Below, in pieces: positions 6,615 to 47,861 of a stretch of DNA of 49,004 nucleotides. The stretch lies in the IMG/VR virus record IMGVR_UViG_3300027498_000005, positions 1 to 49,004 of that record. One strand, 5' to 3'. The notes under the pieces are model-generated. The model worked only from the letters and a program-made list of their open reading frames with translations. It was not told the DNA's origin and did no database searches. The DNA comes from a virus. Positions within the stretch are counted from its first letter, which is position 1, and each line of letters starts with the position of its first letter. Both the position numbers and the translations under genes were made by a program.

Positions 6615-6694
6615 TTATATAGATTAAAGGTGTGTGTTGGCATAGTTACGGGTGCCGTTACAGTTGTGGTTTTAATACTATAACAATGAATTAA

Positions 6695-7300: not shown

Positions 7301-7305
7301 AATGG

Positions 7306-7341
7306 TGTTACAAGTTTAATAGTCTTTTTTGTCCACTTTCG
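7306..7341 (+). promoter_or_regulatory. Late promoter element, copy 1 (before head module)
   Basis: TGTTACA at 7306-7312, 21 bases, then CACTTTCG at 7334-7341, matching four of six fixed positions of the Bacteroidota -7 box TAnnTTTG. The spacing equals that of four other copies. The GTG start of the protease lies only 4 bases after the box, so the message would be leaderless. This copy has the weakest -7 box. Confidence 0.55.
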
Positions 7342-7345
7342 TAGT

Positions 7346-8230
7346 GTGAAAGTAAATCAGTTATTATCAGACGTTATAAGAGGAACGTGGTTATTAGAAC
7401 CAACGTACCTTTTGGGCTTTGCTCCGCAAGTAAAAAAAATTATTGAAGGCGATGTTCTGGATATAGAAAACAGTACCGATGCCCTGGTTAAAATTATAGA
7501 TAATCGTGGGAATGTTGTAAAAGCCGATGAAGATGGTTTTATAGATATTCCTGAAAATTCTGTAGCAGTAGTCTCTATGATGGGTGCTGTTATAAAATAT
7601 GGCGATTGGTGTACGTATGGTGCCGATGAAATATCTGCAGCTTTAGAACAGGCCGATAAAAATCCGAATATAAAAGGAATAATATTTACTATAGATGGTC
7701 CTGGAGGCGCTGTAAGTGCTATAGGTCCATTTTTACAGTTTGCTAAAACAAAAACAAAACCTATTGTTGGTTTAGCAGATGCTTGCATGTCTCTTCATTA
7801 TTGGACAGCCTGTGCCGTTTGCGATCACATAATGGCAGATAATGATGTGTCTGCACGCTTTGGCAGTGTAGGAGTTGTAAGTACCTTCAGGGATGCGCAA
7901 CCGTATTGGGAAAAGCAAGGAATTAAGTTCCATGAAATATATCCTCCAGAATCTGCAAATAAAAACGAAGCTTTTAGACTAGCTCTAGAAGGGGACTATT
8001 CCAAAATTATAGAAGAACATTTATCACCAATTGCAAAAAAGTTTCAGTCTGCAGTACGTACTGGTAGACCAAACCTTGTAGAAACGCCTGGCGTTTTAAA
8101 TGGCAAAACGTATGATGCCGATTTAGCTATTGGAAATGGAATGATAGATGGTATTGGTAGTTTTTCCGATGCCATGGAAATGGTAAATAAACTGGCAGCA
8201 AGCAACGAATTACAACGATTATTATTATAA
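7346..8230 (+). CDS. Head maturation protease, S49 (SppA/ClpP-fold) family
   Basis: 294 residues with a GTG start. IKGIIFTIDGPGGAVSAIG (about 109-127) is the S49 strand and oxyanion region; ACMSLHYWTA places the probable nucleophile Ser at 149, followed by RFGSVGVVSTF. Phage S49 enzymes cleave scaffold and capsid proteins during prohead maturation. The next gene encodes a capsid protein with a scaffold-like N-terminus, the likely substrate. It is the first gene of a three-gene unit behind late promoter copy 1. Confidence 0.85.
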   Translation: MKVNQLLSDVIRGTWLLEPTYLLGFAPQVKKIIEGDVLDIENSTDALVKIIDNRGNVVKADEDGFIDIPENSVAVVSMMGAVIKYGDWCTYGADEISAALEQADKNPNIKGIIFTIDGPGGAVSAIGPFLQFAKTKTKPIVGLADACMSLHYWTACAVCDHIMADNDVSARFGSVGVVSTFRDAQPYWEKQGIKFHEIYPPESANKNEAFRLALEGDYSKIIEEHLSPIAKKFQSAVRTGRPNLVETPGVLNGKTYDADLAIGNGMIDGIGSFSDAMEMVNKLAASNELQRLLL

Positions 8231-8250
8231 ACCCTTAATTATTAAAAACC

Positions 8251-10383
8251 ATGAAATGGAAATTAGCCGCAAAAATGGCAATGTTAGTACAGCAACTCTT
8301 AGGTATTGAAGAAATTCCTATAGATGGCGAAGCAAAAAAAGTTGCTTTTAGCGAAGAGCAAAAAACTCAAATGTTAGGTTTTTTGGCAACCGAAGAAGAT
8401 TACAATGAAATGATGAATCAGTTTAACAAAGATTTATCTAACATGGAATCAGAATCGCAAAGAGAAGAGCGATTAAAAAATGAACTTAGAACTGCTTTAC
8501 AAGAGAATACTAATCTTACTGAGAATGAGATTGATAATAAAGTAAAAGAAGGTGATGTGGCAACACAACTAAGTGCAATGAATGAGACTATGCGCCAGCA
8601 GAAAGCTCAGATTGAAAAATTAATTAATACCCCTGAAGGAGATTCTCCAGTTGCGGAAGGTTTACAAATTGGAGCAAAAATGAAGAATAGCAAAACGCAT
8701 TTATTTGGTGGTAACGAAGCTTATAATGCCTTTGAAGGTAGAGCTTGGAACCAAAGAGCAGCTGGTTTAACTACAGATGCTACTGATTTTACGGATTCTA
8801 CTACTGTAAATAAACTAAATGGCGATTTAGATTTATACTTTAGAGAAAATCCAGACGAAATTAAATCGTTACACAGAGATAATTTTGGGTTACCATCCTT
8901 TTGGCCAAAGCGTTTAAATGTAGATGATAAGGTTAGTGATGGCTTTATAGTATCTGCAGAAATTTCGCAAGCTCGTAAATTACCTTGGTTACCAAAAAAC
9001 AAGCAATCTATTCAGCCAGAAGAAGGTCAAATTTTCCCTGTTCAAATAGATATTGAGTTTGTAGGTCACTATTTACAAAAGATTGAAGCTTCTTGGTTAA
9101 ATTTTATGAATAAAGAAGGTTCTCAGCCTTACAAAACTTCTTTCGTAAGATTTTTAGTTGGTGAGCTGGACAAAAAAGCAAGAGTAGAAGATAGAATTTC
9201 GACCATTAAAGGGGTACATGTTGCTACTCCAGATGATGCTACTGTAGCAGGTAAGTTTATAAACAGACAAGATGGTTTATTGTACCAATTTTTTAAAGGT
9301 AGAGATGTTACTAAAAAATATAAAGCATTTAAGCTTGGTACACCAACTACAATTAATATTGTAGATTATGTAGATGCTTTTATGGAAAGTTTGCCATTAG
9401 ATGTGCGTAGAAATCCAAATTTAAAATTTTACTTATCTCCAGCTTGGTTAACTGCTTACGATAAGCGTTATGAGCAAATACATGCTACACAAACAGATTA
9501 TAAAGGAGTGCCTCCTTATCCAAAAGGATACCCTACGTGTGAGTTTGAATCTTTGGTAGATTTAGAAGGTTTAGATTTTATGTTTGTTACGTTCGATGAT
9601 AATATTGAATTATTAGAGAATGTTCCAAAAGAGAAATCTCTGTATCATTTTGAGTACTTAAAGAGAATGATTTACATCTGGGCAGATTATAAGCAAGGTG
9701 TTCGTTTAATTCATATTGGAAATAAATTAAAAGAAGGGGATCCATTAGAATTTAAAGTGCAAACAGTTTGGTCTAATGATGTGCCAATTTTCCATGATGA
9801 TTTTGCAATTCCTGTTTTTGATGATGAAACTGGAGAAATTGAAGCAAAATTTAATGTAATGCAAGTAGATGCGGGTTGGAAAACACCAGTTACTCAAATT
9901 AAAGGTGCAGCACCAGGACAATTAATTAAAATTATTGGTAATACCGGTATGGCTGCTACTAAGAATGTAAATTCTACAGGTAATATTGGTGTTAGTGCCA
10001 CTTTTGATTTAAAAAGCGGTGGTACATTAACGTTGTATGTGAAAGCAGATGGTTCTATTGTAGAATTAAGCAGAACTACTGGTCCAGCTACTGCAGCAGC
10101 AACAGATACTAATTTTGATTCAGATACTATAGATGCAAGCGAAAGCGATGTGTTCTATTTTATTGGGGAAGCCGATACTACACTAGCAGAAATATTGAAA
10201 GGTGTAGAAGGTAGTACGGTTACTATTTATGGTACTGATACGGTAGATGTTGAGTTTACAGTAACCGATGTAGAAGGTAAAATTTCCGTAACAGAAGATG
10301 CTGTTTTAGCTAGTAAAGCAAATACAATAACTTTAGTAAAAGTTGGTGGTATGTGGTACGAGTCTGAAAGAACGATAGCATAA
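8251..10383 (+). CDS. Major capsid protein with scaffold-like N-terminus and C-terminal beta domains
   Basis: 710 residues, long for a capsid protein. Residues ~1-150 are charged and coiled (EDYNEMMNQFNKDLSN, MRQQKAQIEKL), as in scaffold domains. Residues ~160-540 look like the capsid core. Residues ~550-710 hold two short beta modules of the type GQLIKIIG...LTLYVKADGSIVELSR and STVTIYG...ITLVKVGGMWYESER, related to the tail of the next protein. I infer cleavage of the N-terminal part by the upstream protease and surface display of the C-terminal modules. Assigned by position next to the protease, abundance-type gene order and architecture rather than by a sharp motif. Confidence 0.7.
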   Translation: MKWKLAAKMAMLVQQLLGIEEIPIDGEAKKVAFSEEQKTQMLGFLATEEDYNEMMNQFNKDLSNMESESQREERLKNELRTALQENTNLTENEIDNKVKEGDVATQLSAMNETMRQQKAQIEKLINTPEGDSPVAEGLQIGAKMKNSKTHLFGGNEAYNAFEGRAWNQRAAGLTTDATDFTDSTTVNKLNGDLDLYFRENPDEIKSLHRDNFGLPSFWPKRLNVDDKVSDGFIVSAEISQARKLPWLPKNKQSIQPEEGQIFPVQIDIEFVGHYLQKIEASWLNFMNKEGSQPYKTSFVRFLVGELDKKARVEDRISTIKGVHVATPDDATVAGKFINRQDGLLYQFFKGRDVTKKYKAFKLGTPTTINIVDYVDAFMESLPLDVRRNPNLKFYLSPAWLTAYDKRYEQIHATQTDYKGVPPYPKGYPTCEFESLVDLEGLDFMFVTFDDNIELLENVPKEKSLYHFEYLKRMIYIWADYKQGVRLIHIGNKLKEGDPLEFKVQTVWSNDVPIFHDDFAIPVFDDETGEIEAKFNVMQVDAGWKTPVTQIKGAAPGQLIKIIGNTGMAATKNVNSTGNIGVSATFDLKSGGTLTLYVKADGSIVELSRTTGPATAAATDTNFDSDTIDASESDVFYFIGEADTTLAEILKGVEGSTVTIYGTDTVDVEFTVTDVEGKISVTEDAVLASKANTITLVKVGGMWYESERTIA

Positions 10384-26040: not shown

Positions 26041-29000
26041 ATGGCTAAGACTATTGTAGATGAAGTAATGAAGTTTTCTATTGTCGTAAATGGCAACGAA
26101 GCGCAAAAAGAACTTTACGATTTAGAAAAATCTACTAGGGATTTAACAGCAAGTAATAAAGAATATAGGGCTGAGAAAATTAAATTAGAAAGTCAAAATA
26201 AAAAAGATTCTTCTGAATATAAAAAACTAACTTCTTTAATTACACAAAACAATAAAAAACTTGCTCTAGGCAAAGCCCGAATGAAGGAGTTAAGGGAAGA
26301 AATAGGTGTTTCTAGTCTAACCATGAGGCAATTAAAAACTAGAGTTAAGGAGTTGAATCTTGAACTTTATAATATGGGCGCAAAATCGCCTGGTAGAAAT
26401 AGATTAATTTCAGAATTAAAAGAAGTAAACGCACAAATCGATAAGCTGAAAATTAAAAGTAAGTCTACTTCTTTATCTATAGGTGGTATTGCCAATGGTT
26501 TTAATAAATACGCGGCATTAGGGGCTTCGGCAATAGCAACCTTAACAGGCGTTGTTTTGTCAGCCCAAAAGTTAATAGATTTTAATGGTAAGTTGTCAGA
26601 TTCTATGGCAAATGTTCGTAAAACTACAGGTTTTACAAATGAAGAAGTAGAAGATTTAACCAAAAACTTCGGGTTATTTCAAACTAGAACTAGCCGAATA
26701 AATCTTTTAAAAATTGCGGAAGAAGGTGGTCGAATAGGGATTGCTAAAGATGAAATTGCCGATTTTGTTTCTGTAATGGATAAGGCAGTTGTGGCGTTAT
26801 CCGATTCTTTTCCTGGTGGTGTAGAAGAAACTGCTTCTAAACTAGGGAAACTAAAGCTGCTTTTTAAAGAAACAAAAAAACAATCGGTTGATAAAGCATA
26901 TAATGCAATTGGTTCCGCTATTAACGATTTAGGTGCCGAAGGTGTGGCTTCAGAAAAAAACATTGCCAATTTTGCTACCCGTGTAGGTTCGTTACCTGAG
27001 GCTTTAAAACCAACTATTGCAGATGCTTTAGCATTGGGTGCTGCTTTTGAGGAAAATGGCATACAAGCCGAAATTGCTGGTAGAGCGTATAGTATTTTAC
27101 TAAACCAAGCTGCGGAGGAATCAGAAAAGTTTGCAGAAGTAATGGGCCTTACCAATGCAGAAGTAAAAGTGCTTATTAATGATGATCCTTTAGAGTTCCT
27201 AATAAAATTTGCTAAAGGCCTAAAGGGTATGAATGCTATAGATACTGCCAATACGCTAAAGTATTTGGGAGTACAGGCAGATGGTGCTAATAAGGTGTTA
27301 GGTGCATTATCTAATAATACAGATAGGTTTATAGATCTAATGAATTTATCTAACAAATCTATGGCAGACGGCACTTCGTTAGTAAATGAATACAATATTA
27401 AGAATAACAATTTTGCTGCTGTATTAGATAAGATAGGAAAAAAATTAAGAGGGGCTTTTGCTAGTGGCGTTATATCAGACGGATTGAAAAGTTTGGTGAC
27501 TGGTTTTGGTAAATTGCTCGGGGTTGTTAAAGATGCAGATAAAGCTTTTAGTGACCAAACTAAACAATTGGCAAAAAATGTTCAGGAGTCCAATAAACTC
27601 GCAGCATCGGGGCAAAGGTTGTTGTCAGAGTATAATAGCTTAAGAAAAGAAGGTGTAGAGCCCACAACAGAGAGTAAACACCGTTTAGAAGAAATTACAT
27701 TACAATTAAAAGACCGATTTGGAGATTCTGTAATAGAAATAAATAAAGAAACTGGTGCTTTAGAACTAAATACTGCGGCAGTAAAAGAACAAATATTAGC
27801 GAAAAGGTTGGCAGCAGATGAAGCTTCAGCTGCTTTAGTTTCTCAGTTTGTTGGAGCAAAAGAAGAAGAAGAGCGTTTGCGTAATCAATTAAATCAAGAT
27901 AAAAATAATTTAGCTACTAGAGAGCGTTTGTCTAAAGCTGCTGGCTTTACACCTCGGAGTTCTTCCAGAAGGTCTACCAGTTCTAAGGCTAATAGGTCTC
28001 CAGAAGTGCAAGCCGAAATAGAAGCTACAAATACATTAAATAGTACCCAAGAAAGGTTAAACGCCATTTTACTACGTCAATTTGATATTAGAGCAAAGTT
28101 AAGAGAGAATAATGTAGATGTAGATGAAGCTACAAATCTATTTAATCCTATAGCAAAACCAACTTCTACAACACCTACAGGCGGTGGTGGCGGCAACTCT
28201 TTTACTCCAGTATCTGATACAGATACAGGTAAAACTAAAAACCGTAAGGTTTTGCTAGATTATACTAGAGAAACGGAGGATTTGCGACTGGCTTTAATTT
28301 CCGATTCCTTCCGTAAAGAAATTGAAATACAAAAAGCGGCTCATGCGCGAAAAATTGAAGATTTACAATCGCAAAAAACCACAGGAGAAGATAACTCGGC
28401 TGCTATAAATGCCGAAATAAATAAGCAAATAGAATTACAGCAACAAGTTCATAATAATAAACTTGGCGCCATATATGAGCAAGGTATAGCAGATAAGTAT
28501 GGTAGTGTTCAAGAAAGTTACGAAACCCAAAAAGCTTTTAGATTAGCTGCGCACGAGGCGGAATATGCTGCTTTAGGAAATAACGAAAAAGCAAAAGAAG
28601 ATTTAGATAAAAAATTCCAGACAGAAGAGTTAAAACGGGATGAAGCGCATTTAAACCAATTGCTTGATAATTTGCAAGAGTTACGAGATGCTGGCGAGTT
28701 TGGTTCTATAGATATGTCTTTGCTAACACCGGAGCAAGTTGCGTCTTTTGAGAAGATAGTAGAGGAAGTGAAGTTAAAAATAGCTGAGATAATTGCTGCA
28801 AAAGCTGGTTTGTCTGGAGGTGGGGATACTGAAAGTGAAATATCTGCACAAAAAGTTTTAGATGAAGAGGCTGGTTCTTTAGATATTTTTGGATTTAGTG
28901 CTTCAGATTGGCAACTAACTTTTGATCATTTAGATGGAACTGCAGAAAAAATTCTCGCAGTTCAAACGGCAGTGCAAGGTATGGCTAATATTTGGAAAGC

Positions 29001-36963: not shown

Positions 36964-39798
36964 ATGAGCTACGTAAAGATTGAAGATATAATGAACGCCA
37001 CAGAGGGCGGTCTAAATATAATAGCTATTTATTATCCAGATGCACCGCATGCATTGTCTAAAAAGAGTAAAAAATTTAAAGCTCGTAGAGATGAAAAAAC
37101 AGCATCTGCTAGTATTAGACAAAAAGAAAATGGGTGGTATTATGTTACGGATTATGGTGGAGATAGTAAAGAACGTAATGCAGTAGAGCTATGTATGTTT
37201 GAGGAAGGCTTGTCTTTTGGTGAAGCCTGTGCAGAGCTTGGCGCTCGTTTTAGTATTACTGGAGCTAAATCTACTTCCATATTAGCAAAACCTATTATTA
37301 CCAAAAGGGAAAGAACAGAAGAGGAAGTTCCTGGTACTTATGTTTTTGAATTTAAAGATTTCACAGAGAAAGAATTAGCGGTAATAGGTCCTAAAGTAAC
37401 GGATAAACATTGCTTCGATTTTCAATTTAAAAGCTTAAAATCATTCAGTTATATAAAAGAAACGGAAGTCATTACTTCTGAAGCTACAGAAAACTATCCT
37501 ATTTTTTCTTTTCACCACGAAACTTGGCAGAAAATTTACCAACCATTAAATATAGATAAAGGGTTTAGATTTCGCTATGCTGGCCAAAAACCAAAAAAGT
37601 TTATACACGGTTTAGATGCGTTAAGAAAAGAATACAACAGAATAAAAGAAGCGTATGAAGAAGACTACCAAGATAATGGTAAAAAAAGTAAACTTCCTAA
37701 AAAAGTAGATGCTTGTTATTTAGTATCTGGAGGTTCAGACGGATTAAATTTAAAGTCTTTTGGGTATTTCCCATTGTGGTTAAATAGTGAGAGTGAGCAC
37801 TTAGATTGGAAAGAGTTTAAGGATATATCTTCTATGGTTGCAACCATTTATTACATAGCAGATTTAGATGCTACAGGGGTGTCACAAGCTATTCAAGTGG
37901 GACTTAAGTTTTTAGACATACGATTGGTTTGGTTGCCTAAATCGTTATTAAAGTTTAGAGATAAGAGGGGGAATCCTAGAAAGGATTTAAAAGACTTGGT
38001 ACTGGCTTATTATAACGAAAAGTTTCCTGGTTCTTTTAGTAAGCTTCTAAAATCTTTAATAGAAGATGCGGTTCCTATGAAATTCTGGGGAGAAATAACT
38101 ACAGATCAAGGAACTAAGTATGTTTTTAAAAACACTAGAGCATATCATTTCCTGCAGCACCTCGGATTTGGAAGATATGAGAACCAAAACAGTAAAGAAG
38201 GTTATGTGTGGATACGTTCCCACCATGGAATAGTAAAAATTGTTCGTCCTGTAGATGTTAAAGGTTTTGTAACCAATTTTCTTATAGAACGCAGAATGAA
38301 CGAGGATTTAAAAGATGTTATCTACAAAACCTCGCAATTAAGTGAATCTAGCTTATCAAACTTACCTTATGTAGAGTTAGATTTTACAGATGCAGATAAA
38401 GATAGTCAGCATTTATTTTTTCAGAATGAGGTTTGGAAAGTTACGGCTGATGGCATTGAGAAAATAAAGTATGAAAACGTAAAGTGTTTGTCCTGGGAAG
38501 AAAAAGTGGTAGACAAAAAAGTGCGATTAGAAACACCGCATTTTGAAATTAAAAAAGACGCACACGGAGACTGGGATATAGATATACTAGAGAAAGACAA
38601 TCAATTTCTTAATTATCTAATAAATACTAGTAGGGTGCATTGGAAAAAAGATTTAGAAGATGGTTTTGGAAAGCACCAACAGTTAGCTGCAGAAAAATAT
38701 GCACAAGAACACAAATTTAATATTGCGGGCCCTAATCTTTCTCCAGATGAAGTATTAGAACAAAAATTACATCTAATAAATAAAATTTTCACCTTGGGGT
38801 ATATGCTCCATAAATATAAGAATCCGGCTAAACCCTGGGCACCTTATGCAATGGATCATAAGATTGCAGATATATCAGAAAGTCATGGGGGTAGTGGTAA
38901 ATCGGTTTTCTTAAAATCTATTCAATATATATTAAAAGATAACCATTACATAAATGGTAGGGACCGTAAAAAAACGCAAGATGATTTTATTTACCATGGC
39001 GTAACAGAAGATACCGATTATTTGTTGGTAGATGATTGCCATGCGTATATGGATTATGGCTTCTTCTTTAATGCCATTACCGGTGATTTAGATGTGAATA
39101 ATAAAAATGGTTTGCGATATATAATTCCGTTTGCTAAATCTCCTAAAGTTGCATTTGCAAGTAATTTTCCCCCAAATAATTTAGACCCTTCTTTAGAACG
39201 TAGATTGTTGTTTGTCGTATTCTCGGATTATTACCACTACAATAAAGATGGGGAGTATAACCAGACTAGGATTATATCCGATGATTTTGATGGCAAATCG
39301 TTGTTTTTAGATTTTGATGAAAAACAATGGAATAAAGTTTTGAATTTCTTAGCACAATGCCTTCAGTTTTATTTGTCGCAAACAGGAAAAATAGACCCTC
39401 CTATGGAAAACGTAGAGAAGCGAAATCTTTTAAAAGAAATGGGAGATCAATTCCATTCCTGGGCAGATGGTTTTTTTAGTTTAGTAAAAGACAACGGAGA
39501 TAAAAGAAATTTAGATGATGCGGTAAGTAAAGCTTATGCTACTGGGCATTTTGAAAAAAATACCAATATTAAAAAGTGGACTTCTAATAAATTCAAAAAA
39601 GCCTTAAAAGCATATGCAAAGTATAACGGATGGATTTTTAATCCTACAGATGTTGCACCTAATAATAGAATTATAAAAAAGGTAGATGGGGAGTCTGTAG
39701 AGCATTTTTATATCCGAACAAAAAAAGGGGAAGAAAAAACGGAGTTAAAACCAGACAACTGGACAGAAGAGGATACTAACATAGATGATAATTTTTAA
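36964..39798 (+). CDS. Primase-helicase fusion (TOPRIM-like + SF3-type helicase)
   Basis: 944 residues. N-terminus (about 15-95) resembles the DnaG-type fold around the zinc-binding domain (KFKARRDEKTASASIRQ, GWYYVTDYGG) but lacks the zinc cysteines. A TOPRIM-like part follows (YLVSGGSDGLNL near 250, YYIADLDATG near 297), in which the usual catalytic Glu of the first motif is not seen. Walker A GGSGKSVFL near 640 and Walker B DYLLVDDC near 685 define an SF3/DUF5906-like helicase. Central replication protein of the phage. Confidence 0.85.
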   Translation: MSYVKIEDIMNATEGGLNIIAIYYPDAPHALSKKSKKFKARRDEKTASASIRQKENGWYYVTDYGGDSKERNAVELCMFEEGLSFGEACAELGARFSITGAKSTSILAKPIITKRERTEEEVPGTYVFEFKDFTEKELAVIGPKVTDKHCFDFQFKSLKSFSYIKETEVITSEATENYPIFSFHHETWQKIYQPLNIDKGFRFRYAGQKPKKFIHGLDALRKEYNRIKEAYEEDYQDNGKKSKLPKKVDACYLVSGGSDGLNLKSFGYFPLWLNSESEHLDWKEFKDISSMVATIYYIADLDATGVSQAIQVGLKFLDIRLVWLPKSLLKFRDKRGNPRKDLKDLVLAYYNEKFPGSFSKLLKSLIEDAVPMKFWGEITTDQGTKYVFKNTRAYHFLQHLGFGRYENQNSKEGYVWIRSHHGIVKIVRPVDVKGFVTNFLIERRMNEDLKDVIYKTSQLSESSLSNLPYVELDFTDADKDSQHLFFQNEVWKVTADGIEKIKYENVKCLSWEEKVVDKKVRLETPHFEIKKDAHGDWDIDILEKDNQFLNYLINTSRVHWKKDLEDGFGKHQQLAAEKYAQEHKFNIAGPNLSPDEVLEQKLHLINKIFTLGYMLHKYKNPAKPWAPYAMDHKIADISESHGGSGKSVFLKSIQYILKDNHYINGRDRKKTQDDFIYHGVTEDTDYLLVDDCHAYMDYGFFFNAITGDLDVNNKNGLRYIIPFAKSPKVAFASNFPPNNLDPSLERRLLFVVFSDYYHYNKDGEYNQTRIISDDFDGKSLFLDFDEKQWNKVLNFLAQCLQFYLSQTGKIDPPMENVEKRNLLKEMGDQFHSWADGFFSLVKDNGDKRNLDDAVSKAYATGHFEKNTNIKKWTSNKFKKALKAYAKYNGWIFNPTDVAPNNRIIKKVDGESVEHFYIRTKKGEEKTELKPDNWTEEDTNIDDNF

Positions 39799-39801
39799 GA
39801 T

Positions 39802-39969
39802 ATGCTGTATACAAAATTTGAAACAGAGAAAATATTTAAGGGTTGTAAAAATATAGACGAAGTGATGCGTGTAAGTGGTTGTTTTGCTTTTTTAGTAAAA
39901 GAAGGTGTAGAGGTTCCATTATGTGTTCCCACGTTAGCGCATTTAAAAATTAGAGAAATAAGCAGATGA
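39802..39969 (+). CDS. Small hypothetical protein
   Basis: 55 residues, MLYTKFETEKIFKGCKNIDE and onward, with three Cys. It starts 3 bases after the helicase stop and ends in an ATGA overlap with the next gene, so it belongs to the replication operon. Unknown. Confidence 0.6.
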   Translation: MLYTKFETEKIFKGCKNIDEVMRVSGCFAFLVKEGVEVPLCVPTLAHLKIREISR

Positions 39970-40226
39970 AAAGGGAAGAGTATACAATAATGGCTGCCTG
40001 TAATAAAGCTGGTATTAGAATATATCCGGTGCTGCAGTATGGCTATTACTATTTAGAGGTAGAGTTTAATAGAAGTTCCGAGTTTAATAGGTACGAGCGT
40101 ATAGGGAAGCCAAAAAGAGGAGAGATAAAGCATGCTACGGATTCTTTAGGTTGGGTTCAGGCAATGCTGGATAAGTATAAGGAATTGTACGAAGAAAAGG
40201 TAAAGCCAAAGTTAAATGTCGCTTAA
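39966..40226 (+). CDS. Small hypothetical protein
   Basis: 86 residues, aromatic-rich (GIRIYPVLQYGYYYLEVEFN). Coupled to the preceding gene by ATGA. No motif. Confidence 0.65.
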   Translation: MKREEYTIMAACNKAGIRIYPVLQYGYYYLEVEFNRSSEFNRYERIGKPKRGEIKHATDSLGWVQAMLDKYKELYEEKVKPKLNVA

Positions 40227-40280: not shown

Positions 40281-40910
40281 ATGAAACGTGGAAAAGGCAA
40301 TAGAGTAATTTTTGATAAAAAAGAAATAAAATTTTTAAAAGATAATTTTTTAAAAATTCCAGTTAAAACATTGGCAGCGTTTTTTAAAGTGTCACAAGGG
40401 GTTATAAGGCGAGTTCTTAAAGAGAATAATTTAATTATCCCTTCAGAGTTAGCAGAGCAAAGAAAAAGAGCAAGCATGTATAAAGTGGGTAGTGTACCAA
40501 TGAATAAAGGAAAAAAGCAAGAAGATTACCTAACAGCAACACAAATTAGAAATATTAAAAAAACACAATTCAAAAAAGGAAATATTCCTCACAATAAAAT
40601 TTATAAAGAGCATCATATATCTATAAGGAAAGATAGTAATGGAACATCTTACAAATGGCTAAAAATATCTGATAAGGAGTGGGTTGCATTGCATGTATAT
40701 AATTATAAAAAAGTACATGGTTCTATTCCTGAAGGAATGATGGTTGTTTTTAAAAATGGAGATACGTTAAACTGCAATATTGAGAATTTAGAATGTATTT
40801 CTAAAAAAGAAAACTTAATAAGGAATAGAAAAAAATACTTTGAGCTGCCTATAGCGCTTAGAGAAACAATGAAAATTATAAAATCTGTAGAAAAAGAAAT
40901 TAGTAAATAA
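40281..40910 (+). CDS. HNH (homing-type) endonuclease
   Basis: 209 residues. Two GN/SxPxNK motifs (about 70-76 and 100-106) of the kind found in homing-nuclease DNA-binding parts, then an HNH core: ALHVYNYKKVHG (136-147), VVFKNGDTLNC (155-165) and NIENL (167-171). An HTH-like N-terminus (about 27-50) precedes. Free-standing, not in an intron; probably a selfish nuclease inserted among early genes. Confidence 0.75.
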   Translation: MKRGKGNRVIFDKKEIKFLKDNFLKIPVKTLAAFFKVSQGVIRRVLKENNLIIPSELAEQRKRASMYKVGSVPMNKGKKQEDYLTATQIRNIKKTQFKKGNIPHNKIYKEHHISIRKDSNGTSYKWLKISDKEWVALHVYNYKKVHGSIPEGMMVVFKNGDTLNCNIENLECISKKENLIRNRKKYFELPIALRETMKIIKSVEKEISK

Positions 40911-42270: not shown

Positions 42271-42852
42271 ATGAAAACAATGAAATCAAAAATGCGTCCT
42301 CCAACAAAATATTACGGAGGAAAAGTAAGGATGATGCCTTATATATTGCCTCTAGTTCCTGAACATAGAATATATATTGAACCTTTTGCTGGAGGTGCCA
42401 CTTTATTTTGGGCTAAAGAACCAAGTAAAATTGAAGTTCTTTCTGATATAAATGAAAATGTGACTAATTTTTATAAGGTAATGAAGCTTGATTTCAATAA
42501 TTTGATTTTACAAATACAAGCTACATTGCACTGTGAAGGTACTTTTAATAAAGCTAAATATATTTACAATAACCCACAGGGCTATACTTCTGTAGAGAGA
42601 GCTTGGGCATATTTTGTTAGTTGTAATATGAGTTACGGAGGAGAAGCTGCCGGAAGTTTTCAGTGGGTTCGTAATAAAACAGATAATTGGCATCCTGCTA
42701 TAAGCATTCATAATAGAAGAAATGAATTTAAACTATATGAAGGTCGTTTGGATAAAGTAAGTATCAGGGACCGTAAGGCTGAAATATTAATTCCAGACAT
42801 GGATTCACGAGATGCTTTTTTTTTATTGCGACCCTCCATATGTTGGAGCTAG
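42271..42852 (+). CDS. dam: Dam-type adenine methylase, N-terminal frame (broken at a T9 run)
   Basis: 193 residues before an early stop. KYYGGKVRMMPYILPLVP and EPFAGGATLF (37-46, motif I) are typical of Dam/D12-class N6-adenine methylases. Within T9 at 42816-42824 the frame changes: with 8 T (or 11) the sequence would run DAFFYCDPPYVGARQG, placing the catalytic DPPY right after the run. As given, this frame ends in an unrelated 9-residue tail and lacks catalysis. Either an assembly error, a phase-variable tract, or slippage during expression. Confidence 0.75.
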   Translation: MKTMKSKMRPPTKYYGGKVRMMPYILPLVPEHRIYIEPFAGGATLFWAKEPSKIEVLSDINENVTNFYKVMKLDFNNLILQIQATLHCEGTFNKAKYIYNNPQGYTSVERAWAYFVSCNMSYGGEAAGSFQWVRNKTDNWHPAISIHNRRNEFKLYEGRLDKVSIRDRKAEILIPDMDSRDAFFLLRPSICWS

Positions 42853-43075
42853 ACAAGGTCATTATGCAGGATATAATCAAGAGGATTTTAGTTTGTTACT
42901 TAAGGTATTGGCTAAACTACAAGGAAAGTTTTTATTGTCTTCTTATAAGAATGAAGAGCTGTTTCAGATGACATCGGATTTAGGTTGGAAAAGTAAAAAA
43001 ATAGAGCAAAGGCTTGGTGTTTCTGGAGGAATAGGACGTAAAGAAGAAATATTAACATGGAATTATAGTGTATAA
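42812..43075 (+). CDS. dam: Dam-type adenine methylase, C-terminal frame with DPPY
   Basis: 87 residues from an ATG at 42812 inside the upstream frame, continuing the methylase in another frame: MLFFYCDPPYVGARQGHY holds catalytic motif IV, and LLSSYKNEELFQMTSD and the end WNYSV complete the family. Together the two frames cover a whole enzyme of about 270 residues. The ATG is probably not used as a start; the pieces are one gene split at the T run. Confidence 0.75.
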   Translation: MLFFYCDPPYVGARQGHYAGYNQEDFSLLLKVLAKLQGKFLLSSYKNEELFQMTSDLGWKSKKIEQRLGVSGGIGRKEEILTWNYSV

Positions 43076-43077
43076 AA

Positions 43078-43422
43078 ATGATAAAAAAATATAAGTACGA
43101 GTACAATTTTGGCGATGCCAGTGCAACATTAGAAATAGATATAAATAAATTAGATAAAGAGGGATGTAATATACTACTCCAGTTTTTTAGTTGGGATTAT
43201 GATGTGGAATTATGTCCATACGATGAGCTCGGCCGTTTGTATTGTTTACAAGCAATGGAATTTGCTACATGTAATAGTCATAATATACATGGTGTTATTA
43301 ATGATTTTAAACAATCTGAAGGATTTTTAGAAGTAAATGGTTCTCATGGTGTTACTCTCGTAGATGTTCAAGGAATTGATTTCACTTATTTAGAAATTGA
43401 TAACATGTTAGTTAAGGATTGA
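43078..43422 (+). CDS. DUF2528-like protein
   Basis: 114 residues. KKYKYEYNFGDASATLEIDI at the start and LEVNGSHGVTLVDVQGIDF near the end resemble DUF2528, a small family in phages and prophages of unknown role. Starts 2 bases after the methylase; last gene of the ordinary early operon before the cassette-like array. Confidence 0.6.
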   Translation: MIKKYKYEYNFGDASATLEIDINKLDKEGCNILLQFFSWDYDVELCPYDELGRLYCLQAMEFATCNSHNIHGVINDFKQSEGFLEVNGSHGVTLVDVQGIDFTYLEIDNMLVKD

Positions 43423-43452
43423 GTATGAATACTATTATAAAATCTGGAAATA

Positions 43453-43581
43453 ATGTATAGAGTAATAAAAATAATAGGGGGTCTTTTTATAATTGTAATT
43501 ACAAGCCCTGCATGGTTGCTTTTAATTTTATACAATTTGATAAGTTATATTAAAAATGAAGCGCGCCAACGCCCCAGTTAA
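43453..43581 (+). CDS. Small single-TM protein
   Basis: 42 residues, MYRVIKIIGGLFIIVITSPA with one membrane helix and a basic end (KNEARQRPS). Its stop lies within GCCAACGCCCC-AGTTAA, the possible left end of the first attC-like site. Unknown. Confidence 0.5.
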   Translation: MYRVIKIIGGLFIIVITSPAWLLLILYNLISYIKNEARQRPS

Positions 43582-43703
43582 TGATTTGGCTATGAATAGG
43601 TGTGATTTCCGTTAGGAAATCCACCGTAACAGACACAACACAAACATTGATAAATTATTAACCTTAAAAAGCCTACCGACACTTATTTATAGGTGTTGTT
43701 AGC
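43564..43703 (+). repeat. Possible first attC-like site
   Basis: GCCAACG at 43565 and TGTTAGC at 43697-43703 would be the outer boxes of a ~140-base site. The inner boxes do not pair convincingly. A separate hairpin (GGTG-GATTTCC / GGAAATC-CACC with one bulged T, loop GTTA) lies at 43599-43625. TGTTAGC is a likely cassette junction because the next cassette begins there. Confidence 0.35.
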
Positions 43704-43713
43704 AAATGGCATT

Positions 43714-43920
43714 ATGGCAAAAAGAAAATACACTAAATCAGGAGAAGAACCAAAGGCATACGAATGCACTACCAAGAAATGTAAATGGAAAGGCACAGAT
43801 GAAGAGAAATTAAAAAAAAGAACAAGCAAGTGGGGTTCTCGATACGAGCAAGAATATGTTTGCCCTATATGTGGTAATAATACATTTTATGGTCTGTTAG
43901 AAGCACCTGCTGTTTGCTAA
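43714..43920 (+). CDS. Zinc-ribbon protein, cassette gene 1
   Basis: 68 residues from the ATG at 43714, about 11 bases after a TGTTAGC junction. Cys pairs ECTTKKC and VCPIC suggest a metal-binding ribbon; Lys-rich. The TAA stop lies inside the GCTAACG box of the next attC-like site, as is common for integron cassette genes. Confidence 0.6.
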   Translation: MAKRKYTKSGEEPKAYECTTKKCKWKGTDEEKLKKRTSKWGSRYEQEYVCPICGNNTFYGLLEAPAVC

Positions 43921-44048
43921 CGAGGTCGGGTATGTGCCGATGCGGTTCGTGTAGAAATCAAATAATTTCATTTGAATTTCGGGAACGATTAGCAGCGGAC
44001 AACAAAATAAAAGAGCCTCGCAAGAATTGGCATATACGCTGTGTTATC
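43916..44048 (+). repeat. attC-like site 1
   Basis: Left boxes GCTAACG (43916) and GTATGTGCC (43930); right boxes GGCATATAC (44029) and TGTTATC (44042). Inner boxes pair 8 of 9, outer boxes 5 of 7, with unpaired spacers of 7 and 4 bases. Length 133, in the range of known attC sites. The left outer box also pairs with the first bases of its own cassette (TTTGCTAAC with GTTAGCAAA at 43698), as expected for a cassette end. Confidence 0.6.
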
Positions 44049-44103
44049 TGGAGTAATGTCATACGGAAATTGAAACGTGAATTAATAACTTAAATATATA
44101 AAT

Positions 44104-44232
44104 ATGGACAAAGAAGCAATTGTAGAGGAATTTGAAAATTTTTTAAATGAACATGGTTCATGGATAACTTTTAAAAATTGGATAGAAGACAAGGGGTATA
44201 CTCTTGATGAATTTGGAATGGAGGATGATTAA
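44104..44232 (+). CDS. Small acidic protein, cassette region
   Basis: 42 residues, MDKEAIVEEFENFLNEHGSW, strongly acidic. First gene after attC-like site 1. Unknown. Confidence 0.55.
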   Translation: MDKEAIVEEFENFLNEHGSWITFKNWIEDKGYTLDEFGMEDD

Positions 44233-44245
44233 TAACTTAAAAATA

Positions 44246-44449
44246 ATGAAATTTAATTATAAAGTAAATTGGATTAGTTGGATGGAAAGTTCTGTAGAAA
44301 AGACTACAGATGAAGTTGATAATGTAGAAGTTTTTAAAACATATACAGAAGCGAAGAAGTCTTTGTTAAAATCTTTGACAAGTCTTCGAAGTGAGATTTC
44401 GAGTCATATATATTTAGTAAAAACTATAAAAAAAAATGAAATATTATGA
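44246..44449 (+). CDS. Small hypothetical protein, cassette region
   Basis: 67 residues from the ATG at 44246, 13 bases after the previous stop. Starts MKFNYKVNWISWMESSVEKT. Overlaps the next gene by ATGA. Unknown. Confidence 0.5.
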   Translation: MKFNYKVNWISWMESSVEKTTDEVDNVEVFKTYTEAKKSLLKSLTSLRSEISSHIYLVKTIKKNEIL

Positions 44450-44565
44450 TGAATGGAAAGTGGGATTTTAGGCTTCCCGATTATTTAGCCTTAGTTGTAA
44501 TAGTATTGGTTTTAATATCTGGAGTTATTCAAATCTGTAGATGGATAGTTGATTTAGTAACATAA
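44446..44565 (+). CDS. Small single-TM protein, cassette region
   Basis: 39 residues, MMNGKWDFRLPDYLALVVIV then a membrane helix through LVLISGVIQI. ATGA-coupled to the gene before. Three coupled genes here could act together. Confidence 0.5.
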   Translation: MMNGKWDFRLPDYLALVVIVLVLISGVIQICRWIVDLVT

Positions 44566-44570
44566 TCCGT

Positions 44571-44609
44571 GAGCTTTTTAGCGAGGGGAAAGGCTCTTTT
44601 ATTTTTTTG
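44571..44609 (+). terminator. Hairpin with T run in the cassette region
   Basis: GAGCTTT / AAAGGCTC (one bulge) followed by TTTTATTTTTTT. It ends the three-gene block, directly before the inverted copy of the 43918 repeat. Confidence 0.5.
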
Positions 44610-44639
44610 ATACCCGACCTCGTTATCAGGAATTAGAAA

Positions 44640-44834
44640 ATGGCAGAAATGGAGCTTGCGGAGTTTCAATTTTCGTATGCGAAAGGAGCTTTTTGCGACA
44701 TTGAGGTTATTCCTGATAACGCTCCCTGTGTATGGCGAGTGAGGTTTATTTACAAGTACAAGAAGACCACTTTGCAAAAAATGCAAATTGCTAACAATAA
44801 AAATAATTATGAATTAATCGCAACCTCACATTGA
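44640..44834 (+). CDS. Doubtful small ORF inside the attC-like region
   Basis: 64 codons, MAEMELAEFQFSYAKGAFCD, starting soon after the 44622 junction. Much of it lies in attC-like site 2, so the frame may be chance. A minus-strand frame (44529-44786) overlaps it. Listed because cassette ORFs do run into their attC. Confidence 0.3.
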   Translation: MAEMELAEFQFSYAKGAFCDIEVIPDNAPCVWRVRFIYKYKKTTLQKMQIANNKNNYELIATSH

Positions 44835-44872
44835 GCCATAAATAAGCCTCATTTGCTATACATCTTGTTGGT
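44715..44872 (+). repeat. attC-like site 2
   Basis: Left boxes GATAACG (44715) and TGTATGGC extended to 44752; right boxes ending GCTATACA (44839-44862), spacer TCT, then TGTTGGT (44866). The inner arm is 24 positions with only G/A-type changes (mostly G:T-tolerant). GATAACG pairs with its own cassette start (GTTATC at 44622). At 158 bases it is slightly long for attC. Confidence 0.55.
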
Positions 44873-44991
44873 GTTAGTTATCTAAAGGCAAGCCCAAAAT
44901 ATAATAAGTATAGACTTACATAGTCCAAGGCTTATTTAACAGGGAGCGTTGGTGTAAATGAGCGGTTTGGGAGTCTTAAAAAATTATTATC

Positions 44992-45168
44992 ATGAATGAA
45001 GTTGAAAAAGTAAAAGTAAAAAAATATATAGCTGAAAATAAATATAATTGGACTTACCCTCAAATAAGGAGGGAGTATATTAAGTGGAGGTCTGGTGCTT
45101 ATATTTCTTTTACGGCTAAAAAAGTAATAAACGCCTGTATAGACGAAAATTGCAAAGTATATAAATAA
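44992..45168 (+). CDS. Small hypothetical protein, cassette gene
   Basis: 58 residues, basic (MNEVEKVKVKKYIAENKYNW, YPQIRREYIKWRSGAY). Lies between junctions at 44867 and 45214. Pattern weakly HTH-like; unknown. Confidence 0.5.
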   Translation: MNEVEKVKVKKYIAENKYNWTYPQIRREYIKWRSGAYISFTAKKVINACIDENCKVYK

Positions 45169-45208
45169 TTTTTTATAGCGTAAAACTGCGTGCCTTTAGG
45201 TCATTTAC

Positions 45209-45339
45209 ACCAACGACTAGTGTATGATTTGAAAGGGCTAGAAAAAGACCAGAAAAAACAGCGTAAAACCAAAGAACCCTTATAGATACTAGCTTTAAAT
45301 AGGGCTAGAAAACCCTTTTTAATTATACATATTGTTATG
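45209..45339 (+). repeat. attC-like site 3
   Basis: Left boxes ACCAACG (45209) and TGTATGATTTGAAAGGG (45221); right boxes CCCTTTTTAATTATACA (45313), spacer TAT, TGTTATG (45333). The inner arms match at most of 17 positions. ACACCAAC pairs with its own cassette start GTTGGTGT at 44867. Length 131. No gene lies between 45169 and 45399 other than this site. Confidence 0.6.
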
Positions 45340-45399
45340 CATCTGTATTTTTAAAAAACCGCCTGACCGAAGAATGAGGGCAAAAAAACAAATAAAATT

Positions 45400-45597
45400 A
45401 TGATAGTACAAAACAAAGGATTTGAAAACGACATTAACAAACTTGATGAACTCTATGAGGGTTGTAAAGACATTATACACAATGAACTTGGTTTTAATGT
45501 TACGCCACAAGCAGGAAAGTTGATTGATAAAATACGAGAAATACGAGATTTAGCAATAGTTAATATGCAAGCGAATAACTCAATAAATACTAATTAA
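45400..45597 (+). CDS. Small acidic hypothetical protein, cassette region
   Basis: 65 residues, MIVQNKGFENDINKLDELYE. Preceded by the ACAAATAAAATT leader also used by early phage genes. First of three close genes. Unknown. Confidence 0.55.
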   Translation: MIVQNKGFENDINKLDELYEGCKDIIHNELGFNVTPQAGKLIDKIREIRDLAIVNMQANNSINTN

Positions 45598-45598
45598 A

Positions 45599-45820
45599 AT
45601 GAAAGTAAAAATAGCGAAAACCAAGTTACACGGAATTTGTGAGGAAACTGGTAAAAAGTATTTAATACACCATGAATCTAAAGACGGAAAGGATATGACT
45701 TCTTTAGCAAAAACAGCATCTAAAAGTTACTGGTTTGATGTAGATAATCCTCAATTTAAACCAAACACGATACAAAATGCTAAAATGTTAAGCAATGGTA
45801 GAATAGAAGTCTTAAAATGA
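45599..45820 (+). CDS. Small hypothetical protein, cassette region
   Basis: 73 residues, MKVKIAKTKLHGICEETGKK; starts 1 base after the preceding stop and overlaps the next gene by 4 bases. Unknown. Confidence 0.6.
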   Translation: MKVKIAKTKLHGICEETGKKYLIHHESKDGKDMTSLAKTASKSYWFDVDNPQFKPNTIQNAKMLSNGRIEVLK

Positions 45821-46020
45821 TGGTGGTAGATAACAAATTTGAGTTAAAACAGATAGTTTATTTAAAAACTGATGTTGAACAGAAAGCAAGAATAGTAACT
45901 GGCTTTGTTGTTAGAGAAACTGCAATTGTTTACGAATTAAGTTGTGGCGTAGAAGTTTGTAATAATTACGACTTTGAAATAAGCGACGAGAAAGATGTAT
46001 TAATTGCGACAACCAATTAG
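45817..46020 (+). CDS. Small phage-type hypothetical protein, cassette region
   Basis: 67 residues. FELKQIVYLKTDVEQKARIV then VYELSCGVEV and FEISDEKD form a compact beta fold seen in small early proteins of Bacteroidota phages and elements. ATGA-coupled to the gene before. Confidence 0.6.
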   Translation: MMVVDNKFELKQIVYLKTDVEQKARIVTGFVVRETAIVYELSCGVEVCNNYDFEISDEKDVLIATTN

Positions 46021-46098
46021 CCTAAATATGTTTTATATACGAGTATATGGAACGTTTTTATGGCACGCAACAGTGGGGCGGTTTTTTGAAAATATTGT

Positions 46099-46120
46099 GC
46101 ATAACGTTAAAATGTATGAC
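46099..46120 (+). repeat. attC-like half site
   Basis: GCATAACG (46099) and ATGTATGACC (46111) have the form of left boxes, and TGCATAAC pairs with the cassette start GTTATGCA at 45334. No matching right half was found before the next gene, so the site may be decayed. Confidence 0.35.
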
Positions 46121-46185
46121 CTGTGCGGTTGATAAGATTGAACTTTGGATTAAAAACTAACATTAATAATTAAAGATTTTTAGCG

Positions 46186-46659
46186 ATGGCGAAAACTAAT
46201 AATTACTCTTATAAAGTGAACGATGGAAGAAGGCACGGTGCTTTTAATATATACCAAGCAAAAACTGGTGCAATAATGCTTTTAATGGCTAATAGCTATA
46301 CACCACTTACTTTAAAACAAGTAAATGACCTAAATATAAATGTCTTTAATCTAATAGACTTTGAATACGAAGATTTTAAAAAATTCTACAACCAAAAAGC
46401 GGTGGAAGAAAAATCTTTAATTATGGCTGATAAAAACAAACCTTTGGAAAGCACCGAAACTAAAGCATTGGTTATACATAGTGTTAGCCACAGTTTTTTT
46501 AATGATAAAGAACTGAACCATATTAGACAATGGTTTAACACGACAATAGACCAAAACCAAGATAAAGATATCAAAAAAACAGAATGGGAATTAGCCTTAA
46601 AAATACACACTAAACTTAATATAAGACCTGAAAATAGGATAGTGAAAAATTGTGGCTAA
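46186..46659 (+). CDS. Hypothetical protein, last cassette gene
   Basis: 157 residues, MAKTNNYSYKVNDGRRHGAF; soluble, mixed fold, no motif recognised. Its TAA stop is inside the GGCTAACA box of attC-like site 4, the same stop-in-box arrangement as cassette gene 1. Confidence 0.65.
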   Translation: MAKTNNYSYKVNDGRRHGAFNIYQAKTGAIMLLMANSYTPLTLKQVNDLNINVFNLIDFEYEDFKKFYNQKAVEEKSLIMADKNKPLESTETKALVIHSVSHSFFNDKELNHIRQWFNTTIDQNQDKDIKKTEWELALKIHTKLNIRPENRIVKNCG

Positions 46660-46706
46660 CACCAAGATAAAAAGCGTTTTTTCATGCTTTTTTATCGACT
46701 GTTAGC
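46654..46706 (+). repeat. attC-like site 4 (compact)
   Basis: Left boxes GGCTAACA (46654) and GATAAAAAGC (46666); right boxes GCTTTTTTATC (46686), spacer GAC, TGTTAGC (46700). Outer boxes pair 7 of 7 (GCTAACA/TGTTAGC), inner boxes all but one inserted base, spacers CCAA and GAC unpaired. It is the clearest attC-like fold here, about 53 bases. It could alternatively serve as a terminator hairpin. Confidence 0.6.
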
Positions 46707-46859
46707 TGGAGTATGACGCAGCCTGTAAGAGCGAGTAATATTCCATTTCTAGAACGCTTGGGTTTACTGCAGACGAAGGATCAAACAGTTGCAGTTAGGA
46801 ATCCTTGCACTAAATAAAACTTTAGAGAACTAAGACCAAGTAAATACAAACGTTCCCCC
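46707..46859. other. Non-coding stretch after the last cassette gene
   Basis: No gene or RNA recognised. It begins CTGGAGTATGACGCAG, similar to CTGGAGTAATGTCATA that follows attC-like site 1 (TGTTA[T/G]CTGGAGTA shared), which supports the idea of a common junction. Confidence 0.4.
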
Positions 46860-46884
46860 AACCACCTTTTTAGGTGGTTTTTTT
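46860..46884 (+). terminator. Terminator ending the cassette region
   Basis: AACCACCT / AGGTGGTT with a 4-base loop, then a T run. It insulates the array from the tail-fibre promoter region. A second inverted repeat GTTGTAG / CTACAAC follows at 46889-46914. Confidence 0.85.
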
Positions 46885-47002
46885 ATGCGTTGTAGACTTT
46901 TTTAAGGCTACAACACCTTATATCTTTTACGCACACGAACCCACTGTCCTAATCGCATACATTAACCCCCTCATACTCCCCCTTCTTCTAGTAAAAAATA
47001 AC

Positions 47003-47309
47003 TGTAACTTTGTAACCATTAGCAAAAAACCTCGGTAGATACTAATATACAAGGTTACAGTTTTGTATTGAAATCTTTAACTAGGTTACAAAAAAACTGT
47101 AACCTTTAGTAAAGGTTACAGTTTCTACAAAAATCATAAAAACTTATATCCTTAAAACTGTAGTTTTTAAATACTTAATAATCAATGCGTTAAACCCTTC
47201 GGTTACAAAGTTACAGAGTTACAAAAAAAAAGCAACTAGATAGAGGCTACAGAAAAGTTATTAGAATACACAAATATTCTATATAGAATATTTATTTGTT
47301 CATGTTACA
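47003..47309. repeat. Array of GTTACA boxes
   Basis: GTTACA occurs seven times forward (47054, 47085, 47115, 47202, 47210, 47218, 47304) and three times reversed (TGTAAC at 47003, 47011, 47098). Three forward copies sit in tandem at exact 8-base steps; two reverse copies are also 8 apart. CTGTAACCTTT / AAAGGTTACAG at 47097-47121 is a perfect palindrome with 11-base arms. The last copy is the promoter element of the tail-fibre unit. Candidate activator-binding array, replication iterons or partition site. Confidence 0.75.
47272..47293. promoter_or_regulatory. Perfect 22-bp palindrome before late promoter copy 5
   Basis: Arms AAATATTCTAT / ATAGAATATTT, ending 9 bases before TGTTACA. Pure A/T apart from one C/G pair. 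Probably an operator for a dimeric regulator. Confidence 0.5.
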
Positions 47310-47338
47310 GGTTATTATACACAAAATCGACTATTTTG
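47303..47338 (+). promoter_or_regulatory. Late promoter element, copy 5 (before tail-fibre operon)
   Basis: TGTTACA at 47303-47309, 21 bases, CTATTTTG at 47331-47338 (four of six fixed positions; TATTTTG with one base fewer also fits). The ATG at 47358 follows after 19 bases. It would drive the operon through the join to about 7300. Confidence 0.65.
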
Positions 47339-47357
47339 CCGTATATTTATAGGTATT

Positions 47358-47861
47358 ATGCTAGTATCAGATCGTGTTTATAACAATCCGCATATATGTG
47401 GTATTCAGGTAGATTTATCTGCAAAGGAATTTGCTTCGGGTAATTTTGATGTGCAGCCATTTTATAATACCAATATATCTGAAGGAAATTTTAAGAAGGT
47501 ATATTATTCTATTGGTAGTGCCTCTTTTAAAGAAACTACTTCGCAAAATAGCTCTGGAATATTATTTAAGCAAAAAGTAACTATTAAGTTGCCTTCTTTA
47601 GATAAGAATAGGTCCCAAAGGATAGAGGAATTTAGAAAAATTAAGTTCCTGGCAATAAAATTATCAGACGGTAAAAAAATAATCTTAGGAAGAAATGATT
47701 TTTTTGTAAATGCAAAACCGCGTATAAGTATAAGTTCTACCGAAAAAAGTAGCCAGATTCAATTTACCACCTATTCTATTTTTCCAGTTGGTTTTTTTGA
47801 AGGAACCGCGGCCTATGGTTACGTTTATGAATTACCAATTTCATTTTTAGAAAACATATAG
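47358..47861 (+). CDS. Tail-associated structural protein
   Basis: 167 residues, beta-rich (NPHICGIQVDLSAKEFASGN, IKFLAIKLSDGKKIILGRND). First gene behind promoter copy 5 and upstream of tail-fibre genes, so a tail or baseplate attachment part is likely. No motif identified. Confidence 0.65.
   Translation: MLVSDRVYNNPHICGIQVDLSAKEFASGNFDVQPFYNTNISEGNFKKVYYSIGSASFKETTSQNSSGILFKQKVTIKLPSLDKNRSQRIEEFRKIKFLAIKLSDGKKIILGRNDFFVNAKPRISISSTEKSSQIQFTTYSIFPVGFFEGTAAYGYVYELPISFLENI

Follow-up and report, generated by a model that had tools for sequence, protein, structure and literature searches.

An array of attC-like sites that probably builds and exchanges small genes in a Bacteroidota-type phage

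A textbook integron cassette consists of a gene together with its own attC site, and it is cut at the R' box only. Clusters of attC sites lacking integron integrases (CALINs) are already known in phages: Qi et al. (2023, PMC9892861) describe phage attC-type arrays without an integrase and report tests of two sites of Polaribacter phage P12002L, of which one, P12002L_attC2, was recombined by IntI1 from its bottom strand at a frequency not significantly different from that of a bacterial attC site. The stretch analyzed here, the window, is a virus record of IMG/VR (IMGVR_UViG_3300027498_000005; 49,004 bases) with a tail tape measure and other structural-type genes. Between its early genes and its tail-fibre region lies a block of small genes and hairpin sites, which we read, with a probability of roughly 0.7, as an array of attC-type recombination sites building and exchanging small phage genes. 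The array works like an attC array, but it does not consist of textbook integron cassettes. Relative to the phage CALINs in the accessible part of that report, which share P12002L with our set (nine sites here), the present arrays are distinguished by a conserved stem with two G.T pairs, by coding cores, by open reading frames (ORFs) that pass through R' always in the same frame, and by exchange at either box.

The sites follow the attC layout R''(AAC)–spacer–L''...L'–spacer–R'(GTT); we refer to the stretch from AAC to GTT as the core and to that from GTT to the next AAC as the segment. Scanning 43400–46900 for this structure (AAC, 4 to 9 nucleotides (nt), stem, stem, 2 to 6 nt, GTT) gave four matches at a score of at least 12, the best four lying at 44718, 45212, 46103 and 43919; sixty dinucleotide shuffles produced 0.3 such matches on average and never more than one. 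Covariance model R1, built from 40 sites in other phages and containing no window sequence, identified four sites within 1.8 kb of the whole window (43574–45342; E 6e-11 to 4.4e-7; all on the plus strand), and its next-best match on either strand had E=0.35. An initial annotation made from the letters alone had proposed four attC sites, at 43916, 44715, 45209 and 46654. The first three are recovered by both methods as sites A, B and C (Table 1). The fourth, site E, is probably right, its short core recurring at 84% identity in L013, L042, L058 and L085, although by itself it stands at R1 background (E=0.46). Two further sites had been overlooked, namely S0, with AAT for AAC, and D, which is likewise at R1 background (E 0.87); sites D and E rest on the structure scan and on relatives, not on R1. 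An earlier scanner that required full pairing of R'' with R' found nothing in the region, because the two boxes come from different segments and share only AAC and GTT.

Indications of exchange come from comparison with other phages. Segment 5 of the window is common to the unrelated phages L006 and L007, in whose retrieved loci 46462–46692 is 87–90% identical and nothing else matches the window, and tracing this segment (46483–46660) into them led to many further loci. The same C-terminal half is found with different N-terminal halves in 14 pairs, identity reaching background at GTT, and the reverse is found in 5. Edge profiles over 19 pairs show an identity of about 0.99 inside, falling to 0.3–0.6 beyond the left edge at GTT, where the residual similarity reflects the shared L' consensus, and to 0.3–0.5 beyond the right edge at AAC. 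These profiles replaced a test based on the blunt ends of high-scoring segment pairs, which were not separated from controls because L' similarity lengthens alignments and box-like triplets are common inside segments. Among 11 informative homologous segments in non-collinear contigs, both neighboring cores differ in 10 and the downstream core alone in the remaining one; the classical pattern, in which the upstream attC is changed and the downstream one retained, occurs in none. Crossover is not restricted to R' with each cassette keeping its own attC; edges fall at GTT and at AAC. Cores are exchanged as well: a 217-nt core, 99.1% identical in L007 (L007_9610) and L071 (L071_4923), has different segments on both sides and little beyond AAC and GTT in common at its joints, and 29-nt segments are 100% identical between L007 and L054. 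Related phages also vary here: P12002L and P12002S, with flanks 99.6–99.7% identical, differ by an insertion of three whole core/segment modules, and L003 and L005, about 90% identical around the slot, differ within it. No clear flipped homologue between phages, as shufflon-type inversion would produce, appeared in a minus-strand comparison of all segments.

Many genes run through the sites, in related phages of marine bacteria as in the window. At site D of the window, the junction of the fusion ORF reads ...ALVIHS/VSHSFFNDKELNHIRQWF...NCG-stop, its N half coming from the core and its C half from segment 5, and the stop lies inside the next box (NCG-TAA-C at 46650–46660), a placement that the initial annotation had noted for two gene stops. 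Across the family, 130 of the 308 sites have an ATG in the core that opens a frame with GTT as a valine codon and extends over at least 10 codons upstream and 20 downstream of GTT, compared with 8 and 15 sites for the other two frames. In ten pairs with homologous downstream halves, mismatches are distributed 12/14/58 over codon positions 1/2/3 of the GTT frame. Downstream halves of the common VSQQREL... and VSHCFF... types begin at GTT, where they have no start codon of their own, and their stop often lies within the AAC box (TGT GGC TAA C); many C halves open with the same 20 nt (GTTAGCCAACAACG.GAACT) and close with AATTGTGGCTAAC. Genes annotated in GenBank for P12002L, for example 39708–39995 and 40567–40896 (minus strand), likewise begin within a core and stop close to the AAC that follows. 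Fused cassettes of class 1 integrons, which arise by loss of attC (PMC4670013), resemble these genes in that the ORFs of neighboring cassettes become one frame; in the phages, by contrast, an intact attC sits within the ORF and still serves as a breakpoint. The fused proteins had no functional match in Pfam or PHROGs, and the predicted structure of one N+C protein, three helices with a predicted TM-score (pTM) of 0.38, had no significant match in the PDB. An invariant VSQQREL follows the R' box in C halves whose N halves are nearly unrelated, the pattern search having selected for this motif.

The long stems covary strongly. In a covariation set of 40 sites of the 115–126-nt class, pairing is intact in 92% of cells, two-sided changes occur at 14 of the 17 L-stem pairs, and 175 double-changed cells compare with 58 in shuffles; moving the partner by 1–3 columns lowers the paired fraction to 32–50%. 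Covariation was used because folding of single strands by minimum free energy is dominated by the long loops and was unremarkable for the individual sites tested (absolute z about 2 or less). Wobbles are one-sided: in sites with a score of at least 13, scored without wobble preference, there are 99 cases of G on the left opposite T on the right and only 8 of all other transition mismatches together, and the G.T pairs sit at fixed positions, 9 and 14 nt from GTT, in 46 and 54 of 57 sites. The first bases of a segment pair with its own R'' box at 7.0 of 12 positions, compared with 4.2 for the ends of other segments (187 segments); this pairing, noted in the initial annotation, is directly visible in the window. 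In AAC/GTT boxes, asymmetric spacers around a covarying L''/L' stem, and complementarity of the segment start to its own R'', the phage sites thus agree with integron attC sites (VCR, attCaadA7; PMC2727003). They differ in having breakpoints at R'' too, and in that the extrahelical bases that set bottom-strand choice were not found: the stems are ungapped over 14–18 positions, detection being ungapped and hence under-counting bulged sites, and carry instead the two fixed G.T pairs (C.A on the bottom strand). Site E, with an unequal A/T run containing one extra T, may be an exception to bulge-free stems. With two textbook features lacking, extrahelical bases and R'-only crossover, we do not class the array as an ordinary integron.

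The window array is one of a large family that is essentially undescribed. Of 90 loci, 82 contain sites, 336 in all and as many as 16 in succession, where shuffles predict about 18, a count that is no estimate of prevalence since the loci were gathered in part with attC-linked patterns; the family detector demanded the stem and, in general, the wobble signature as well. The 82 site-bearing loci are Bacteroidota-type viruses. Cultured members are the Polaribacter phages P12002L, P12002S (14 sites) and Leef_1 (four sites), and Cellulophaga phage phi13:2, with five sites carrying the wobble signature. Core lengths over all loci fall into discrete classes near 40, 82, 117, 185, 215 and 265 nt. Two scans of genome contigs with exact attC patterns gave no match, the second none in 257 gigabases where chance alone should have given a match or two, which is not evidence of absence from chromosomes.

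Which enzyme might act on these sites? The absence of an integron integrase from the window, already stated in the initial annotation, is upheld, the best match to TIGR02249 reaching 56 bits over the last 81 positions against a cut-off of 265, and none of 13 related records has a protein over this cut-off. The tyrosine integrase of the window is not an integron integrase and is not adjacent to the array. Six clustered sites (four found by R1, a model of their own family, plus D and E) without an integrase form a cluster of the CALIN kind. Just downstream of the array and on its strand, small Xer-like tyrosine recombinases (about 255–287 amino acids) are encoded in other loci (Table 1), those of L101 and L045 being 59% identical. 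Their best models are XerA-type (NF040815), XerC/D and integron integrase, all below cut-off, and TIGR02249 is matched in two pieces without the middle region; the XerA-type enzymes are of the same recombinase class as integron integrases. By their position, these genes are suggestive of a link with the arrays. The Leef_1 enzyme, to which many other phages encode distantly related proteins, could simply be that phage's own integrase, and its location next to the array is therefore no more than suggestive.

We propose the following model. Each site would fold as a long hairpin, with an L''/L' stem of about 15–18 base pairs (bp), between the AAC and GTT boxes, at which a site-specific recombinase of the integron/Xer tyrosine class, acting in trans in most of these phages, would cut. 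Many cores contain a start codon followed by an N-terminal ORF half, and the stretch from GTT to the next AAC contains a start-less C-terminal half with its stop often in the AAC box, such that recombination would join the halves in frame at the GTT (Val) codon. Comparison between phages demonstrates the sites, the breakpoints, the shared halves, the covarying stem and the coding frame. By analogy with integron biochemistry, we infer a tyrosine recombinase acting on folded single strands, and use of either strand that would place breakpoints at R' (bottom strand) and R'' (top strand). In attC sites deprived of extrahelical bases, recombination occurs at R' from a delivered bottom strand and at R'' from the top strand (PMC2727003), and since bulged bases are absent from the phage stems, recombination of either strand would explain why edges fall at AAC as well as at GTT. 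For the phage, the advantage may be a fast-changing set of small accessory proteins. The model in its full extent, a phage-wide combinatorial assembly of small proteins from N and C half-genes at intragenic attC-like hairpins, with both R boxes in use and the recombinase mostly in trans, is more likely than not, though somewhat less assured than the reading of the array given at the outset.

Several observations weigh against this model. Recombination at the sites is deduced from sequence comparison, and translation of the fused ORFs from the substitution pattern and the annotation. In a few pairs (P12002L/P12002S, where one joint of the insertion lies a few bases inside L'', and L054/L079), the right breakpoint is inside or beyond L'' and not at AAC. 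The second detector used the wobble rule, so that only the unbiased count of 99 against 8 is independent. No match to the Phage_integrase family (PF00589) was found in 29 of 30 array-bearing virus records, some of which are fragments. In the published assay (PMC9892861), IntI1 yielded no recombinants when given the top strand of P12002L_attC2, a result that, for this enzyme, lends no support to strand-indifferent use of such sites.

Could the array instead be an ordinary CALIN, made of classical cassettes that IntI captured from bacterial integrons by R'-only crossover and whose downstream cores diverged or were replaced later? The AAC/GTT architecture, the pairing of segment starts with their own R'', the one-way orientation and the precedent of phage CALINs, one of them in a Polaribacter phage whose sites are of the same family (PMC9892861), would all fit. 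We nevertheless hold this unlikely: in no informative segment pair is the core downstream retained and the one upstream changed, segments that are 99–100% identical already have different right-hand cores, and coding sequence in the core and genes crossing R' are foreign to the classical cassette. The initial annotation is retained in part. An array without integron integrase is indeed present, pieces of it occur in unrelated phages, the family model scores it far above background, and the block is not shared whole among relatives; its reading as textbook cassettes of gene plus own attC is contradicted by the breakpoints at both boxes, the coding cores and the genes that cross the crossover point.

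Still less probable is homologous or annealing recombination between short conserved linkers, similar to phage module linkers, with the hairpins incidental. The common starts and ends of the C halves could act as such linkers, and phi13:2 encodes a RecT protein, but some breakpoints lie where nothing beyond AAC and GTT is shared (the L007/L071 core and the L007/L054 29-nt segments), and this explanation leaves unaccounted for the covarying stem, the fixed wobbles and the activity of IntI1 on a P12002L site (PMC9892861). That the stems serve mainly as RNA elements (terminators, processing or translational control), keeping G.U because the transcript folds and undergoing exchange as a side effect, we consider the least probable of all. 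The near-exclusive occurrence of G.T on the coding strand would favor folding of the top strand or the transcript; the wobbles, however, stay at two positions without drift, the exchange edges match the boxes and not the stems, and no Rfam family reached its gathering score in 43000–47400, nor was an attC family among the Rfam matches there at E of 1 or less.

Table 1. Sites, segments and associated genes of the window array, with recombinase genes lying beside arrays in other loci.
Record	Feature	Position	Strand	Details
Window	Site S0, array left end	43574..43706	+	R1 43.8 bits, E=3e-7; R'' degenerate (TTAAT for TAAC); L'' GGCTATGAATAGGTGT, L' ACACTTATTTATAG; R' GTTAGC at 43698
Window	Segment 1	43698..43921	+	GTTAGCAAATG...TTTGCTAAC; ORF 43693-43920, stop codon within R'' box
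Window	Site A	43919..44045	+	AAC-GAGGTC-GGGTATGTGCCGAT ... ATTGGCATATACGC-TGT-GTT; two G.T pairs; structure scan; R1 43.1 bits, E=4.4e-7 (43913-44051)
Window	Segment 2	44043..44720	+	Two small ORFs: 44104-44232, about 44246-44449
Window	Site B	44718..44869	+	AAC-GCTCCCTG-TGTATGGCGAGTGAGGTT ... AGCCTCATTTGCTATACA-TCTT-GTT; 18-bp stem; top structure-scan match; R1 52.5 bits, E=3.7e-9 (44712-44875)
Window	Segment 3	44867..45214	+	ORF 44992-45168
Window	Site C	45212..45336	+	AAC-GACTA-GTGTATGATTTGAAAGGG ... CCCTTTTTAATTATACAT-ATT-GTT; structure scan; R1 60.7 bits, E=6e-11 (45206-45342)
Window	Segment 4	45334..46105	+	Three small ORFs: 45400-45597, 45599-45820, 45817-46020
Window	Site D	46103..46485	+	AAC-GTTAAA-ATGTATGACCTGTGC ... 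GCATTGGTTATACAT-AGT-GTT; 377-nt core; structure scan 13.6; both G.T pairs
Window	Fusion ORF, 157 amino acids	46186..46659	+	Starts in site D core, crosses R' box in frame 0, GTT = Val
Window	Segment 5	46483..46660	+	GTTAGCCACAG...TTGTGGCTAAC; start-less C-terminal half bounded by GTT and AAC
Window	Site E	46658..46703	+	ACCAAGATAAAAAGC-GTTTTTTCAT-GCTTTTTTATCGACT-GTT; short 40-nt core
Window	Phage-type tyrosine integrase, 397 amino acids	34264..35457	-	Arm-DNA-bind_5, SAM-like_5 and Phage_integrase domains; Bacteroidota-type
L101	Xer-like recombinase	8131-8934	array strand	
L045	Xer-like recombinase	6641-7405	array strand	
L025 (Leef_1)	Xer-like recombinase	28136-28996	array strand	
L027	Xer-like recombinase	2715-3524	array strand	

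The ORF of segment 1 probably starts at the ATG near 43714 (MAKRKY...) and encodes a small protein with CxxC-type cysteine pairs, for which no family scored above cut-off. In segment 4, the stretch 45813–46019 has relatives in L106 and L061 at 67–71% DNA identity. Segment 2 contains near its end a hairpin, TTAGAAAA...TTTTCGT...GAGGTTAT (about 44608–44720), that carries a perfect inverted copy of the segment 2 end plus the start of core A, and segment 3 has a second inverted copy of its own junction at 44936–44959. Segments of a second type end in this hairpin in the window (44608–44720 and 44936–45214), L066 (1280–4440) and L094 (5533–7070), the left arm being a 22-nt inverted copy, with 0–2 mismatches, of segment end, AAC and upstream core start. 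In an excised circle closed at AAC the arm would give a near-perfect inverted repeat of about 27 bp; eight such cases were found, and none for the alternative circle closed at GTT. We had taken the copies in segments 2 and 3 for fossils of excised circles, a reading now superseded, since the hairpin is also present in L066 and L094 and is therefore more probably a recurring element.

By its primase/helicase-type protein, the window phage is closest to records L002–L005 (70–73%) and to the cultured Polaribacter phage Leef_1 (46%), and with the latter among its relatives its host is likely flavobacterial. To the left of the array, a DNA adenine methylase-like gene (42271–43075) is split into two overlapping frames, 42271–42852 and 42812–43075, by a frameshift, a sequencing error or a programmed shift. 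At 46857–46885, after the array slot, lies a terminator-like hairpin (AACCACC...GGTGGTTTTTTT), which occupies the same place in the related phages L003 (15743–15766) and L005 (9999–10022). An inverted-repeat cluster based on GGTTACAAAG/CTGTAACC (46987–47240), just right of the array and 76–78% conserved in L002, L003 and L005, is possibly a replication or control region.

In the open-access literature, most subscription papers lying outside that search, we found no account of half-genes being exchanged in frame at attC sites that remain intact. If our model is correct, these phages would represent a natural system in which recombination hairpins inside genes mix protein halves, with a logic comparable to that of exon shuffling. 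With these sites, attC would no longer be confined to a few phage CALINs but would recur across the sampled virus loci; the sites would also offer natural material for studying how attC strand choice is set, and it would become testable which integrase carries cassettes between phages and hosts. Half-gene exchange of this kind would also provide a concrete source for many of the unexplained tiny proteins of Bacteroidota phages.

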